This document shows positions 5,833-27,813 of a stretch of DNA of 64,000 nucleotides, piece after piece. Positions within the stretch are counted from its first letter, which is position 1, and each line of letters opens with the position of its first letter. This DNA is from an uncultured Cohaesibacter sp. (lineage in GTDB: Bacteria; Pseudomonadota; Alphaproteobacteria; Rhizobiales; Cohaesibacteraceae). The stretch lies in NCBI RefSeq assembly GCF_963678225.1, contig NZ_OY782763.1:62001-126000 (forward strand). The letters run 5' to 3'. The notes under the pieces were generated by a model. That model was given only the letters and a program-made list of their open reading frames with translations, was not told the origin of the DNA and ran no database searches. A program made the position numbers and the translations under genes.

Positions 5833-6453
5833 ATGAAATTCAAACTCGTAACAACCGTTCCCCTTTTGATTGCTCTGGCAGGTTGCAACGCTCAGACATC
5901 CAGCTCCACCAGCGGTTGGATCAGCGCTATGAACAATCGCGCCCCCACGAAAACAACCATCTATGTTTGCCACACATTCGGTTGCAGCCTGAAATATGGC
6001 TATCACTTTACCAAGGTCGATCTTGCAAAACTCAAGAGAATACTTCACGCCGGACGCAAAAGTCCCGAGGCGGAGCTCAAGGCCATAGGCAATGCGGTTG
6101 CATGGTTTGAAAAGCGTGTTGGCCCCTATGTCGGATCAGACAAAGACAAGGGTGGGCTGGATATGAGAAATGCCGGCGTCCCGGGTCAGATGGACTGTAT
6201 CGATGAAGCCAGCAACACCACATCGCTCATCACCTTTGCCCAGAAGCATGGCTTCTTGAAATATCACAAGGTCCAATCGCCGGTCGCCAGAGGCTTCTTC
6301 CTTGATGGCCGATATCCGCATGCAACGGCCGTCGTGCTCAATACCGAAAATGACAAGCGCTACGCGATCGATAGCTGGATCTATGACAACGGCGTATTCC
6401 CCAAGATCAAGCCACTGGAAGACTGGATGGCTGAATCGCCCGCCAGATACTAG
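5833..6453 (+). CDS. Lipoprotein of unknown function with candidate Cys-His-Asp site
   Basis: A 206-residue protein with a lipoprotein signal peptide: a basic start, a hydrophobic stretch, and the lipobox LAGC with Cys18. I do not recognise a named family. The mature part has Gln119-Met-Asp-Cys122, His163 (in YPHATAVVL) and Asp180 (in YAIDSW). That spacing, with the His and Asp on what look like adjacent strands, is like transglutaminase and papain-fold cysteine hydrolases, so an envelope cysteine hydrolase is possible. Two further cysteines (46 and 51, in VCHTFGC) could form a disulfide. The function is inference. AGCGGGAA precedes the ATG. It is monocistronic. Confidence 0.75.
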   Translation: MKFKLVTTVPLLIALAGCNAQTSSSTSGWISAMNNRAPTKTTIYVCHTFGCSLKYGYHFTKVDLAKLKRILHAGRKSPEAELKAIGNAVAWFEKRVGPYVGSDKDKGGLDMRNAGVPGQMDCIDEASNTTSLITFAQKHGFLKYHKVQSPVARGFFLDGRYPHATAVVLNTENDKRYAIDSWIYDNGVFPKIKPLEDWMAESPARY

Positions 6454-6600
6454 AGCCTGACTTATCTCTCAGTTCGTCACAACGCCCAGCCGCCGAGCTA
6501 GGAGATACCTCGCATGCAGCACATTCACGCATAGCTACAGGCGCATTCGCCGGGTCCTGACCGTCGAGCATTTATCTTTTGGATAGGACAAGCTAGAATT

Positions 6601-6707
6601 AGAAAAGCCCACCGGGGGAGGAGATCCGGTGGGCTTCTAAGGGTGTTTCAAAACGGGGAGGAATCGTTTCGAAACGTCTCAGACTTTCGGGAGGAGGAGA
6701 AAGTCTG
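6601..6707 (-). ncRNA. Three tandem cuckoo-type sRNA hairpins with CCUCCUCCC-type loops
   Basis: Read on the minus strand, three consecutive stem-loops follow the DUF1127 gene. The first (6707-6680) has a perfect 9 bp stem and the loop TCCTCCTCCC. The second (6675-6645) has an 11 bp stem with one G-U pair and the loop ATTCCTCCC. The third (6636-6605) has an 11 bp GC-rich stem, the loop ATCTCCTCCC, and then TTTTCT, so it doubles as a rho-independent terminator. The C/U loops are anti-Shine-Dalgarno-like. This is the architecture of the cuckoo RNA family, exemplified by CcsR1-4 of Rhodobacter sphaeroides, which are co-transcribed with a DUF1127 gene and induced by stress. Three copies, the loops and the neighbour gene are seen directly; regulation is inferred from the family. 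Confidence 0.88.
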
Positions 6708-6723
6708 AATTCCTATAAATCTG

Positions 6724-6873
6724 TTACATACCAACCGCGCGTCTTGCGGTCTGCGTTACGTCTGCGCGAGAAATGCTGACTTCACATTCTCTATTGGACA
6801 GACGATTAAGATTATCGACTGTGTCACGAAAATTGCGCCACTGCCTATAATTCTGAACAACCGTATCAAGCAT
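6724..6873 (-). CDS. DUF1127 small arginine-rich protein
   Basis: A 49-residue basic protein. The core YRQWRNFRDTVDNLNRLS and the following ISRADVTQTARRA match the DUF1127 pattern (aromatic-Arg helix, then a short I/V-S-R-x-D-I helix). I chose the ATG at 6871-6873 because AGGA sits 8 bases upstream and because DUF1127 proteins are usually 45-50 residues; an ATG at 6913-6915 would add 14 residues and lacks a good ribosome-binding site. The R. sphaeroides homologue linked to CcsR RNAs (CcaF1) is an RNA-binding protein. Seventeen bases after the stop the first of three anti-SD hairpins begins, so mRNA and small RNAs are probably one transcript. Confidence 0.85.
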   Translation of the reverse strand: MLDTVVQNYRQWRNFRDTVDNLNRLSNRECEVSISRADVTQTARRAVGM

Positions 6874-6915
6874 CTTTTCGATCCTACGTTGCCGAACCTT
6901 CAAGTGACTCTGCAT

Positions 6916-7445
6916 CTTTAATAAGATGACTGTTTCGTTTTTTAATCAACATCTCATTGCTGTTGATAAATAGATAGCAAAAGACTCCCGATATTTGCAC
7001 TGCAAAAATATGCATAGCTGTCTTGCACATCATGCAAAACCGTCATTGCTTTGCTAAGGAACCTGCACATTTCGCATAGCGGGAACAGAATTGAGGAAAT
7101 CTTCCCATAAATTCAATAGCTTGGAGATATGCGGTTTCAAATCTCTAAAATGCGCAAACATACGTAATAGGACGTATACTTATTTGGTCAAGAGCAGGGG
7201 GCTTGTGAAAAGCAAAAATATTGAGAGGGAAAGTCAGAAAATTACGATATTCACTATTGTGAATTTTGCATCGCAACACAAACGGCGATCACATAAATGA
7301 TTTATATCAATGCGCGCTAGACCACAACGAGGGTTTTGAAAAAAAACAAGCAAGTTCAATAGCTTATATTTTTTTCCAAAAACAAATCTCATTGTGCATC
7401 GCCGAAAGTATTACGTATTTCCCCTCAGCAAGAATCTAAAAGGAC
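6916..7445. other. AT-rich 530 bp gap upstream of the DUF1127/sRNA unit
   Basis: This stretch lies between the 5' side of the DUF1127 gene and the 3' end of uvrA, both on the minus strand. It is clearly more AT-rich than its surroundings and holds A/T runs such as those around 7330-7385. I see no convincing gene; an open frame at 7091-7300 has no ribosome-binding site or recognisable content. It must contain the promoter of the DUF1127/sRNA unit. I could not pick out a clear heat-shock (RpoH) or sigma-70 promoter. The notable content is the palindrome pair listed separately. Confidence 0.6.
6995..7037. promoter_or_regulatory. Two phased TTGCA/TGCAA palindromes (candidate operator)
   Basis: TTGCA-C-TGCAA lies at 6995-7005 and TTGCA-CATCA-TGCAA at 7023-7037. 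Their centres are 30 bp apart, close to three helical turns, so both would face the same side of DNA. They are 120-165 bp upstream of the chosen DUF1127 start. No regulator is assigned. The palindromes are seen directly; the operator role is inference. Confidence 0.4.
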
Positions 7446-10337
7446 TCACGATTTAGAATCGCGTCGTTCCTTCAGTTCTTTCAAGAACTGACCTGTATAG
7501 CTTTCTTCGCACTTCATGACGTCCTCAGGCGTTCCTTCAATGACGATTTGTCCACCGCCGTCACCACCTTCCGGTCCCAGATCCAGAATCCAATCTGCAG
7601 TCTGGATCACTTCAAGATTATGCTCGATCACTGCAACCGTGTTGCCCTGATTGACCAATTCATGAAGAACTTCGAGCAGCTTGGCCACATCATGGAAATG
7701 CAATCCGGTGGTTGGTTCATCCAGAATATAGAGCGTTCGCCCCGTAGAACGTTTTGAAAGCTCCTTGGCGAGCTTGACCCTTTGCGCCTCGCCCCCAGAA
7801 AGAGTCGTGGCTTGTTGCCCCACTTTCACATAGCCCAAACCGACCCGCTGCAAAGTCACCATCTTGTCACGCACGGCAGGAACAGCCGAGAAGAAGTCGG
7901 CCGCTTCATCGACCGTCATTTCCAGAACGTCAGAAATCGATTTGCCCTTGAACTGCACTTCCAGCGTTTCACGGTTATAGCGATGCCCTTTGCAAACATC
8001 ACATGTTACATAGACATCCGGCAGGAAATGCATCTCGATCTTGATGACGCCGTCGCCCTGACAAGCTTCACAGCGCCCGCCTTTAACGTTGAAGGAAAAG
8101 CGACCGGGCGCATAGCCGCGCGCCTTGGCTTCAGGCAATCCCGCAAACCAGTCGCGGATGGGCGTGAAGGCACCGGTATAGGTGGCCGGGTTTGAGCGCG
8201 GCGTACGCCCGATGGGTGACTGATCGATGTCGATCACCTTGTCGACATGTTCCAACCCTTCAATCCGATCATGCGGGGAGGGCATATCCCGCGCCCGGTT
8301 CAGCTTCATGGCTGCGCTTTTGTAAAGCGTATCGATAAGGAAGGTGGATTTGCCGCCCCCAGAAACACCGGTCACGCACGTAAAAGTGCCAAGAGGAATG
8401 GAAGCCGTTACGTTCTTGAGGTTGTTGCCACGCGCATTGACCACCGTGATCTGCTTCTTCTTGCCCTTGCGGCGACTATGGTCAACGGAAATGGTTTTCG
8501 CACCAGACAAATACTGACCAGTAAGAGACGCCGGATCGGCCATGATTTCAGCGGGCGTACCTTGAGATACGATATGACCACCATGAATGCCGGCGCCAGG
8601 GCCCACATCGACAACGAAGTCGGCTTCCAGCACAGCATCTTCATCATGCTCAACCACGATCACCGTATTGCCCAGATCGCGCAGATGCTTCAACGTTTCA
8701 AGCAGCCGTGCGTTATCGCGCTGATGCAAGCCAATGGATGGCTCATCCAACACATAAAGAACGCCAGTCAAACCAGAGCCAATCTGGGAGGCCAGCCGGA
8801 TGCGCTGGCTTTCTCCGCCAGAGAGCGACCCCGAGCCCCGCGAGAGCGTCAGATATTCAAGGCCAACATCGTTGAGGAACTTCAGCCGCTCGCGAATTTC
8901 TTTAAGGATACGTTCCGCAATCTCGGTCTGCTTTTCAGACAAAGTGGCGGGAAGATCCTGCACCCACTGGGCCGCAGCACGAATGGAAAGGCTCGAAATC
9001 TGCGAGATATGCTTGCCATCCAGCTTGACCGCAAGTGCTTCTGGTTTGAGGCGATGACCATCACAGGCAGAGCAAGCGTGAGCGGACTGATATTTGCCGA
9101 TATCCTCGCGCACCATGCTGCTCTCGGTTTCTCTGAACCGACGCTCAAGATTGGGAATAACACCTTCAAACGGCTTGGTCGTCTTGTAGGATCGCGCCCC
9201 GTCATCATAAACAAAGAGCAGCTTCTCCTTGCCGGTACCATAGAGAATGACTTCCTGCGCCTTGAAGGGCAGTTCGATCCACGGCACCGTAAGTGAAAAG
9301 TCAAAATGCTTGGCCAACGCCTCCAGTGTCTGGCGATAGAAGGGGGACGAGGTCTTGGACCAAGGCGCAATGGCCCCATCCTTGATGCTGCGAGAGGTAT
9401 CGGGGATGACGAGCTCTGGGCTTACCTGAAGCTCACTACCCAAGCCATCACAAACAGGGCAGGCGCCGAAAGGGTTGTTAAAGGAGAAGAGACGCGGTTC
9501 GATCTCCGGAATCGTAAAACCGGAAACAGGACAGGCGAATTTCTCTGAAAAAGTAATCCGCTTCGCTTCGCCATTCTCTTCCTTCTTATCCACCATCTCG
9601 ACAATGGCCAACCCATCGGCCAGTTCCAGAGCCAATTCAAGGGAGTCGGCAAGGCGTTTCTCGATGCCTTCCTTGACCACCATACGGTGGACGACAACCT
9701 CGATATTGTGTTTGAACTTCTTGTCCAGCGTCGGCAAATCACCGTCATCATACATCTGCCCGTCGATCCGGAAGCGCGTGAGCCCGCGCTTGACCAACTC
9801 GGCCAACTCCTTGCGGAACTCGCCCTTGCGCCCACGCACAATGGGCGCCAAGAGCAGGAAGCGCGTTTTCTCGGGCAGCTCCATGACACGGTCCACCATC
9901 TGGCTGACCGTCTGGCTTTCAATCGGCAAGCCTGTCGCCGGACTATAGGGAATACCCACGCGCGCGAACAAAAGGCGCAGATAGTCATAGATCTCTGTTA
10001 CAGTCCCGACCGTCGAGCGCGGGTTACGCGAGGTCGTTTTCTGCTCGATAGAAATGGCAGGCGAAAGACCCTCAATGGAATCCACATCGGGCTTCTGCAT
10101 CATTTCAAGAAACTGCCGCGCATAGGCCGAGAGGGATTCAACATAGCGCCGCTGCCCCTCTGCATAGACGGTATCAAACGCCAGCGAGCTTTTGCCAGAC
10201 CCTGACAGGCCGGTCATCACAACCAGCTGATCGCGCGGAATATCAAGATCAACATTCTTGAGATTATGTTCCCGTGCACCGCGAATCGATATCGCTTTCA
10301 TCGAAGGTGCAACGGACACTTTTTTATCAATCGTCAT
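7446..10337 (-). CDS. uvrA: Excinuclease ABC subunit UvrA
   Basis: Damage-sensing ATPase of nucleotide excision repair; a UvrA dimer loads UvrB at lesions. The 963-residue protein has two ABC ATPase modules, the first with [14 protein letters not shown] near residue 45 and [12 protein letters not shown], the second with [14 protein letters not shown] and [12 protein letters not shown]. The second zinc module (CEACQGDG...CDVCKGH) is complete. The first reads CPVSG...ACPVCDG, so one of its four cysteines is Ser. I chose the ATG at 10335-10337; a longer frame from a TTG at 10382 adds residues unlike the family, and an internal Met before KAISIRG is also possible. It is divergent from ssb, the common bacterial arrangement. 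Confidence 0.97.
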
Positions 10338-27149: not shown

Positions 27150-27225
27150 TGGTACGCCATCAAGGGTTCGAACCTTGGACCGTCCGATTAAGAGTCGGAT
27201 GCTCTACCAGCTGAGCTAATGGCGC
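27150..27225 (-). tRNA. tRNA-Lys (anticodon CUU)
   Basis: The minus strand folds as a 76-base tRNA with encoded CCA. The anticodon stem TCCGA/TCGGA holds the loop CTCTTAA, anticodon CTT, reading AAG lysine codons. D-loop (AGCTGGTAGAGC) and T-arm (GGTTCGAACC) are standard, and the discriminator is A. The acceptor pairs GCGCCAT with ATGGCGT, which puts a G-U pair at position 1-72. Confidence 0.96.
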
Positions 27226-27448
27226 TTAACCAACAACAAAACGAGAAGTCTTGTTTATCAATTTGATGACAGTCTTTTACCAGAGCAGGAGAAAAAATCA
27301 ATATACGCGTTAATACGCTTTCGGGTGTTCTGCACCGTTTTGTTGAATTTTTTCATCCATCCGAAAAACAACGGTCCAAAGCGCACAGCTTCAACAGCCA
27401 GGCCGGGAACCTTCTTTGCAATATCAATGATTTGGGGGAAGAGGGGAA

Positions 27449-27524
27449 TGGTATGCCCGGAAGGATTCGAACCTTCGACCGTCCGATTAAAAGTCGGATG
27501 CTCTACCAACTGAGCTACGGGCAC
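27449..27524 (-). tRNA. tRNA-Lys (anticodon UUU), copy 1
   Basis: A 76-base tRNA with encoded CCA on the minus strand. The anticodon loop CTTTTAA gives TTT, which reads AAA and AAG. The acceptor stem GTGCCCG pairs with CGGGCAT with G-U at 1-72, discriminator A. The sequence is identical to the copy at 27738-27813. Confidence 0.96.
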
Positions 27525-27737
27525 ATATTCCATAAGCGACAGTAAAACCATCGCATTGCCTTTGTATTAAAGGCCGGACCCTTGTAGCAGAATTTTCCAC
27601 TCAGTCGAGCGATGAATTCCGCTAAATATGGTTTTCTACAACAAATTTGCCAAGAAAACCAAACCACAACCGAAATCCAAAACCGCTCAATTCCACAATT
27701 AGGAGGATCACATAAACGCTTCAAATTTCAAGGAAAA

Positions 27738-27813
27738 TGGTATGCCCGGAAGGATTCGAACCTTCGACCGTCCGATTAAAAGTCGGATGCTCTACCAACT
27801 GAGCTACGGGCAC
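27738..27813 (-). tRNA. tRNA-Lys (anticodon UUU), copy 2
   Basis: Identical over all 76 bases to the copy 213 bases to the left, with the same G-U closing pair, anticodon TTT and encoded CCA. The flanks differ beyond a few bases, so the duplication is not very recent or only the tRNA is kept identical by selection or gene conversion. Confidence 0.96.

Follow-up and report, generated by a model that had tools for sequence, protein, structure and literature searches.

The window, as the whole analysed stretch of 64,000 nucleotides from an uncultured Cohaesibacter is called here, belongs to a genome of two contigs (4.94 Mb) and carries a three-hairpin small RNA behind a short gene of the DUF1127 type. 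The RNA sits between uvrA and a gene for a protein of 206 amino acids. The latter gene (5833-6453) encodes a product for which no match was found in Pfam or NCBIfam. Read along the window, the features of the locus are:

6600-6713, minus strand: ar14 small RNA (Rfam RF02344), model positions 1-123 of 123, 78 bits, E 2.4e-12
6603-6638, minus strand: hairpin 3 of this RNA, stem of 13 bp, loop AUCUCCUCCC at 6616-6625 (fold)
6645-6675, minus strand: hairpin 2, stem of 11 bp, shortened loop of 9 nt, AUUCCUCCC, at 6656-6664 (fold and orthologue alignment)
6679-6708, minus strand: hairpin 1, stem of 10 bp, loop UCCUCCUCCC at 6689-6698 (fold and loop table)
6724-6873, minus strand: DUF1127 small protein gene, 49 amino acids; 10 nt separate its stop codon from the ar14 match
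6969-6978, minus strand: -10-like element GCTATCTATT, of the CTATAT type in other copies (alignment and spacing table)
6996-7004, minus strand: TGCAGTGCA element, lying upstream of the -10-like element and downstream of the box (alignment)
7011-7025, minus strand: predicted VtlR/LsrB-type box CAAGACAGCTATGCA, which reads GCAT-N3-TG-N3-T on the plus strand

Folding of the minus strand at 6600-6713 yields three hairpins with a minimum free energy of -48.2 kcal/mol (z -7.37), and none of 200 shuffled sequences was equally stable. According to the fold and a motif scan, each of the three loops of the window copy contains an unpaired UCCUCC; a pattern search of the own genome found the full CCUCCUCCC in hairpin 1 only (6689-6697). 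The scan covered both strands of the window for anti-Shine-Dalgarno (aSD) hairpins with a stem of at least 9 pairs (G-T allowed) and a loop of 7 to 12 nt containing TCCTCC. It returned the three hairpins of the array only, each twice in nested form, against a background of 0.17 listings per shuffled window (30 dinucleotide shuffles). An earlier note on this DNA, which had described three minus-strand hairpins with aSD loops, is thereby confirmed, and the letters it gave for the loops are correct. Its remark that the stems are unlike one another also holds, since the 5' arms of the three hairpins agree at 3 to 5 positions at best. The stem lengths of 9-11 bp that it gave apply to hairpins 1 and 2, whereas hairpin 3 has 13 bp. 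The last hairpin had been called a terminator, which is plausible from its GC-rich stem and the UUUUCUA that follows it, and hairpin 3 likely acts as a terminator as well, as far as its U tract can tell. The terminator scan is blind to it, because its loop limit is 8 nt and the loop of hairpin 3 has 10 nt; with this limit, the terminator and sigma-70 scans of 6400-7450 gave weak results and listed no terminator. Elsewhere in the window, three successive tRNA-Lys genes, one with a CTT and two with TTT anticodons, lie on the minus strand at 27150-27813.

The covariance-model search proposed in the earlier note was run against Rfam, and the model that matched was ar14, at 78 bits and thus above the gathering score of 58.8 for RF02344. 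The identity suggested at first, the cuckoo/CcsR RNAs of Rhodobacter, therefore stands as far as an aSD hairpin RNA behind a DUF1127 gene is concerned, but the matching model is that of the NfeR1 family. The three hairpins are a member of the already described αr14 family (NfeR1 type), small RNAs of bacteria that are regarded as silencing genes by masking ribosome-binding sites. The founding member is the 123-nt RNA NfeR1 (Smr14C2) of Sinorhizobium meliloti, as stated in the available text of PMC10746234. Members of αr14 are described there and in PMC7143759 as RNAs with three hairpins, an aSD motif in each and differing stems. Three loops in one unit, which had been regarded as a departure from the known arrangement, are hence the standard form of the family and were rejected as a novelty; SmelA075 and SmelA099 of S. 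meliloti have a like design. The wording of PMC7143759, an aSD motif that is unpaired in each of three hairpin loops, describes the window copy. In the stricter wording of PMC10746234, the identical CCUCCUCCC occupies all loops, and the window copy has it in one of three. Since 19 of the 37 genus copies above the Rfam cut-off deviate in this respect, CCUCCUCCC in all loops is taken as typical and not as defining. The own genome contains three ar14 copies, and the other two, with scores of 91.8 and 88.9 bits, have CCUCCUCCC in 3/3 loops each.

Matches to ar14 above the cut-off were obtained in 20/20 searched genomes of the family and in 0/14 control genomes. Order-wide, 40 of 121 genomes have a match, which is above the cut-off in 15 of the 121; 36 of the 40 lie outside the family, and gene context was taken from 26 of these 36, one locus each. 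Cohaesibacter itself is represented by 18 genomes including the own one, with 37 copies above the cut-off, 29 of them distinct; this count excludes six sub-cut-off matches of the genus (L053-L058) and seven matches of G018 and G019, which represent two other genera of the family. A literature search pairing "Cohaesibacter" with "sRNA" found no paper and one joining CIN1 and DUF1127 found PMC10253847 only, with some central papers outside the reach of the search. The design is already known; within this reach, no description appears to exist of this particular RNA, of the way it is wired into an operon or of the DUF1127-free locus dealt with below.

Conservation of the structure was analysed in an alignment of 28 of the 29 distinct genus sequences (L004 was left out) with 31 base pairs. 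Paired cells make up 98.8% of this alignment compared to 92.5% in shuffles, and two-sided changes occur in 11/31 pairs compared to 6.2 in shuffles. Further pair types number 25, compared to 22.5 in shuffles, a value reached by 17/500 shuffles. Sliding the partner by 1 to 3 columns left 28-58.5% of the cells paired. Among the 28 distinct copies, the mean pairwise identities of stems 1-3 are 0.83, 0.81 and 0.94, and those of loops 1-3 are 0.62, 0.84 and 0.91, the figure for loop 1 being lowered by its length variation; the linkers have an identity of 0.54. Taken together, the identities and the pairing statistics mean that two things are retained, the nucleotide sequence of loops 2 and 3 and the base pairing within the stems. 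The earlier view that selection is on the loops is thus valid for the comparison between the hairpins of one array; across the 28 copies, however, stems and loops are about equally conserved. Selection on the loops alone was rejected in view of the stem identities and the two-sided changes.

The DUF1127 gene upstream of the RNA is likely real, judged by its sequence and that of its orthologues. Its start codon is conserved in the alignment and coincides with position 6873, the end coordinate that had been given for the array and its gene. The 49-aa protein scores 22.4 bits against PF06568, just below the gathering score of 23.3, and NCBIfam gave no family for it. It is 100% identical to a protein of Cohaesibacter marisflavi and 95% identical to one of C. 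haloalkalitolerans, and its C-terminal half deviates from the DLGISR / ELGISR pattern of the other two copies. Six orthologues (15 pairs) have dN values of 0.00-0.04 and dS values of 0.2-1.5; given this purifying selection on the 49-aa product, the transcription unit probably has two working products, a protein and an RNA. The association with DUF1127 reported at the outset extends through the genus, where a DUF1127 gene precedes 35 of the 37 ar14 copies. Outside the family, a DUF1127 match lies at most 400 nt before the RNA in 14/26 loci of the order and is absent in 12/26; among the 11 of these 26 loci that are above the Rfam cut-off, DUF1127 is present in 8. Two further genera of the family show DUF1127-plus-hairpin units that are repeated a few hundred bases apart (L050 in G018 and L051 in G019).

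The neighbours of the window copy are themselves conserved. uvrA adjoins an ar14 copy in 16/18 genus genomes and the 206-aa gene in 17/18, and by at least one of these marker genes a copy can be placed at the uvrA locus in 17/18; in G007, where the contig is cut, the placement relies on the 206-aa gene only. G008 (L017) was left out of the uvrA-linked counts, as uvrA is missing from the 1,500 nt upstream of its copy and its downstream flank spans 74 nt. Its ar14 element is identical to that of G007, and its upstream flank contains what we take, by eye, to be a transposase-like ORF fragment. DUF1127 is present at the uvrA locus in 15/17 genomes and absent in G004 (L028) and G016 (L027). In these two genomes, the 90 nt that precede the RNA contain a promoter-like stretch, TGCAGAACTGCTATGCA ... 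TGCAGTGCA, which lacks the exact consensus and leaves no space for a DUF1127 gene; their copies contain the full CCUCCUCCC in 3/3 loops. Loss of DUF1127 in G004 and G016 appears to be the simpler reading.

Copies at the uvrA locus differ from the others in their loops. Three full CCUCCUCCC are found in 2/17 uvrA-linked copies versus 16/19 other copies (Fisher p 3e-5, with G008 excluded and shared descent ignored) and, if distinct sequences are counted, in 2/15 versus 11/14 (p 7e-4, shared descent likewise ignored). A degenerate loop is accordingly present in 15/17 uvrA-linked copies versus 3/19 others. The shortened middle loop, to which the earlier note had drawn attention, is a lasting trait: a middle loop of 9 nt, as in the window copy, occurs in 11/17 copies at the uvrA locus, and G006 has one of 8 nt. 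Pairing energies, computed with short made-up SD strings, are -22.4 kcal/mol for loop 1, -17.3 for loop 3, -14.4 for loop 2 and -20.2 for a canonical loop 2 with GGGAGGAGG; with a plain GGAGG site, all loops lie between -10.9 and -12.2 kcal/mol. The suggestion that the loops may differ in strength is therefore supported by the computed energies for extended SDs, but not for plain GGAGG, where they are near-equal. With loop 1 full and loops 2 and 3 clipped, the window copy should act more weakly or more narrowly within the three-copy set.

Upstream of the DUF1127 gene, the predicted box follows the consensus published for VtlR, GCAT-N3-TG-N3-T (PMC7486931), with the match at 7012-7024, and agrees at 12 of 15 letters (3 differ) with the form CAATGCAGCCATGCA given for Brucella in PMC12595884. 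Counted within 250 nt before the conserved Y-x-Q-W motif of the protein, the consensus is found upstream of 35/37 genus copies, the same 35 that follow DUF1127, with 1.96 expected from shuffles. The 15-letter pattern CAnnnCAGnnATGCA has an expectation of 0.02, which is unfair, since this pattern was composed after the sequences had been seen; the value of 1.96 for the published consensus is the fairer one. The -10-like word begins 29-35 nt past the box in 35/35 box-bearing copies, which are related sequences and not 35 independent events, and in which the -10 words were picked after inspection of the alignment. The copies without the exact consensus are L027 and L028, which have only a look-alike. 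Significance of the box by count alone was rejected, as four sites with up to 3 mismatches occur in the window and 4.5 are expected, and so was that of the 13-letter consensus (13 in the window, 15 expected). The weight of the box lies in its constant position within a single genus. For the window box, the NfeR1-type spacing TGCA-N6-GCAT was rejected, the nearest such site being at 7064-7077. This site lies approximately 40 nt upstream of the box, and the motif occurs 3 times in the window with 5.6 expected. Beyond the genus, the consensus was found within 450 nt before the RNA in 2/26 loci outside the family and before one (L022) of the seven matches that the other two genera of the family contributed. 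The own genome encodes an LsrB homologue adjoining trxB, whose entire length matches PDB 9HH1, the LsrB of A. tumefaciens (PMC11975290), at 409 bits, and S. meliloti LsrB is described in PMC10746234 as binding and activating the promoter of the ar14 RNA NfeR1. LsrB control of the ar14 unit in Cohaesibacter is thus likely from sequence comparison; its generality beyond the genus is not supported by the box counts.

The reading that we favour, with a probability of about three in four, is that the array is a trans-acting sRNA of the ar14 (NfeR1) type, which is derived from the 3' end of an LsrB-activated DUF1127 transcript and blocks purine-rich SD sites. The family match, structure, covariation, synteny, conserved promoter motifs and the presence of an LsrB homologue are observed; transcription, LsrB control, processing and targets are what we infer from them. 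LsrB/VtlR, a redox-responsive regulator of the LysR type, would activate one promoter, consisting of the box at 7011-7025 and the -10-like element at 6969-6978, and the transcript would cover the DUF1127 gene and all hairpins, with its end at hairpin 3. DUF1127 would be translated from this transcript, and an endonuclease such as RNase E, by analogy, might release the hairpin part from it. The three C/U-rich loops could then pair with purine-rich SD sites, thereby blocking the translation of many mRNAs, perhaps including those of transport and carbon-use genes. The own genome contains 18 sites of the form GGGAGGAG-N2-9-ATG compared to 7 for the reversed control. An ORF of 120 aa or more belongs to 12 of them; nine of these 12 were scanned in Pfam, and four of the nine encode transport parts. 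The sites could pair and are candidates at most, not targets. On contig C2, divergent genes for a methylmalonyl-CoA-mutase-like protein and a crotonyl-CoA carboxylase/reductase each have a GGGAGGAG ribosome site (L074/L075, 425490-425854), and their products are among the nine scanned. The same contig carries two genes for 499-aa proteins (L069/L080), which are alike in their first 120 residues and have the start region GGGAGGAGATTATG in common; the product of L069 is an FGGY carbohydrate kinase according to the Pfam scan.

Three other explanations have to be weighed against this one. The hairpins could do no more than stabilise and terminate the DUF1127 mRNA as its 3' UTR, with the protein as the product that matters; their closeness to the stop codon (10 nt) and the strong purifying selection on DUF1127 at this locus (dN 0.00-0.04 and dS 0.2-1.5 in 15 pairs) would speak for this. 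However, the loop motif and the pairing are maintained in 28 distinct copies, and the two of 17 uvrA-locus genomes without DUF1127 retain the RNA with three full CCUCCUCCC and a similar promoter. Together with the 12/26 loci in other families that have no DUF1127 in the 400 nt before the ar14-like RNA, this makes a mere 3' UTR very improbable. The order of a DUF1127 gene and aSD hairpin RNAs is that of the CIN1 locus (PMC10253847), and the unit might be a stress operon of the CcsR type under RpoH, as in Rhodobacter, in which DUF1127 acts as an RNA-binding maturation factor like CcaF1. This is improbable in view of the Rfam match to ar14 and the upstream elements conserved in the genus, which resemble an LsrB-type box and a CTATAT-like -10; moreover, PMC12501420 reports that other DUF1127 proteins act via protein binding.

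An explanation that concerns the uvrA-linked copy in particular is that it is a decaying paralogue, the loops of which drift as two stronger copies cover the function. It has somewhat more in its favour than the former two, namely the scarcity of three full CCUCCUCCC at this locus (2/17 versus 16/19, p 3e-5, shared descent ignored), and is nevertheless unlikely: the stems of the window copy are intact, every loop still has an unpaired TCCTCC, the promoter elements and the protein are conserved, and a copy is present at the locus in 17/18 genus genomes.

A wider proposal is tentative and falls short of being probable. One LsrB-driven promoter of Cohaesibacter would make both DUF1127 and ar14, and the uvrA locus would be an operon on its way to a free-standing sRNA of the NfeR1 type, two genomes having lost the protein gene. 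If this is true, the operon of Rhodobacter and the lone sRNA of rhizobia would represent a single module in two different states, and the clipped uvrA-linked loops would mark a division of labour among copies. Hairpin sRNAs of the aSD type, DUF1127 proteins and probable control by LsrB/VtlR are joined here in a predicted transcription unit that is conserved within one genus. The uvrA locus, which occurs with a DUF1127 gene and lacking one, offers a natural comparison for deciding which of the two products, protein or RNA, does the work; this question is live because PMC12501420 reports RNA binding for DUF1127 proteins of one species and protein binding for those of others.

Compared to known systems, the window RNA is like αr14/NfeR1 in its full-length model match, its three hairpins with unrelated stems, the unpaired aSD loops, the predicted LsrB-type box and the presence of several copies in the genome. 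Unlike NfeR1, which the available text describes with a promoter of its own, it follows DUF1127 and probably shares the promoter of this gene; furthermore, its box is without the N6 spacing and its loops 2 and 3 do not have the full 9-mer. CcsR of Rhodobacter is a looser analogue of the window array. The loops of the CcsR RNAs are of the aSD type. For R. sphaeroides, PMC10253847 describes CcsR as a DUF1127-linked set of four homologous sRNAs with an RpoHI/RpoHII promoter. The window locus resembles CcsR1-4/CcaF1 (CIN1), as described there, in the sequence of a small DUF1127 gene, hairpin RNAs co-transcribed with it and a 3' terminator, co-transcription and termination being predictions for the window locus, and the arrangement that marks the cuckoo/CIN1 type, a short DUF1127 gene on the same strand before an aSD hairpin RNA, is found here with the stop codon 10 nt before the match. 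In place of four homologous sRNAs and an RpoHI/RpoHII promoter, it has a single ar14 unit of three hairpins, and its predicted promoter is of the LsrB type. AbcR (αr15, RF02345) is alike in its CU-rich aSD motifs and is tied to LsrB/VtlR in some species (PMC7486931, PMC7143759); it belongs to another Rfam family, and the AbcR-like RNA of the own genome lies elsewhere, after the lsrB homologue. This ar15 match (L037:1476-1612, contig C1 near 1215482) lies approximately 155 nt after that gene; its score of 33.2 bits does not reach the cut-off, which is 40, and its E value in the stretch searched is 3.4e-5. Redundant silencing by the three motifs has been reported for NfeR1 of S. meliloti in PMC7143759, and in the same species SmelA075 has three hairpins and SmelA099 four; their loops resemble CCUCCUCCC and their stems vary more, a design that was described in 2011 (PMC3927594).
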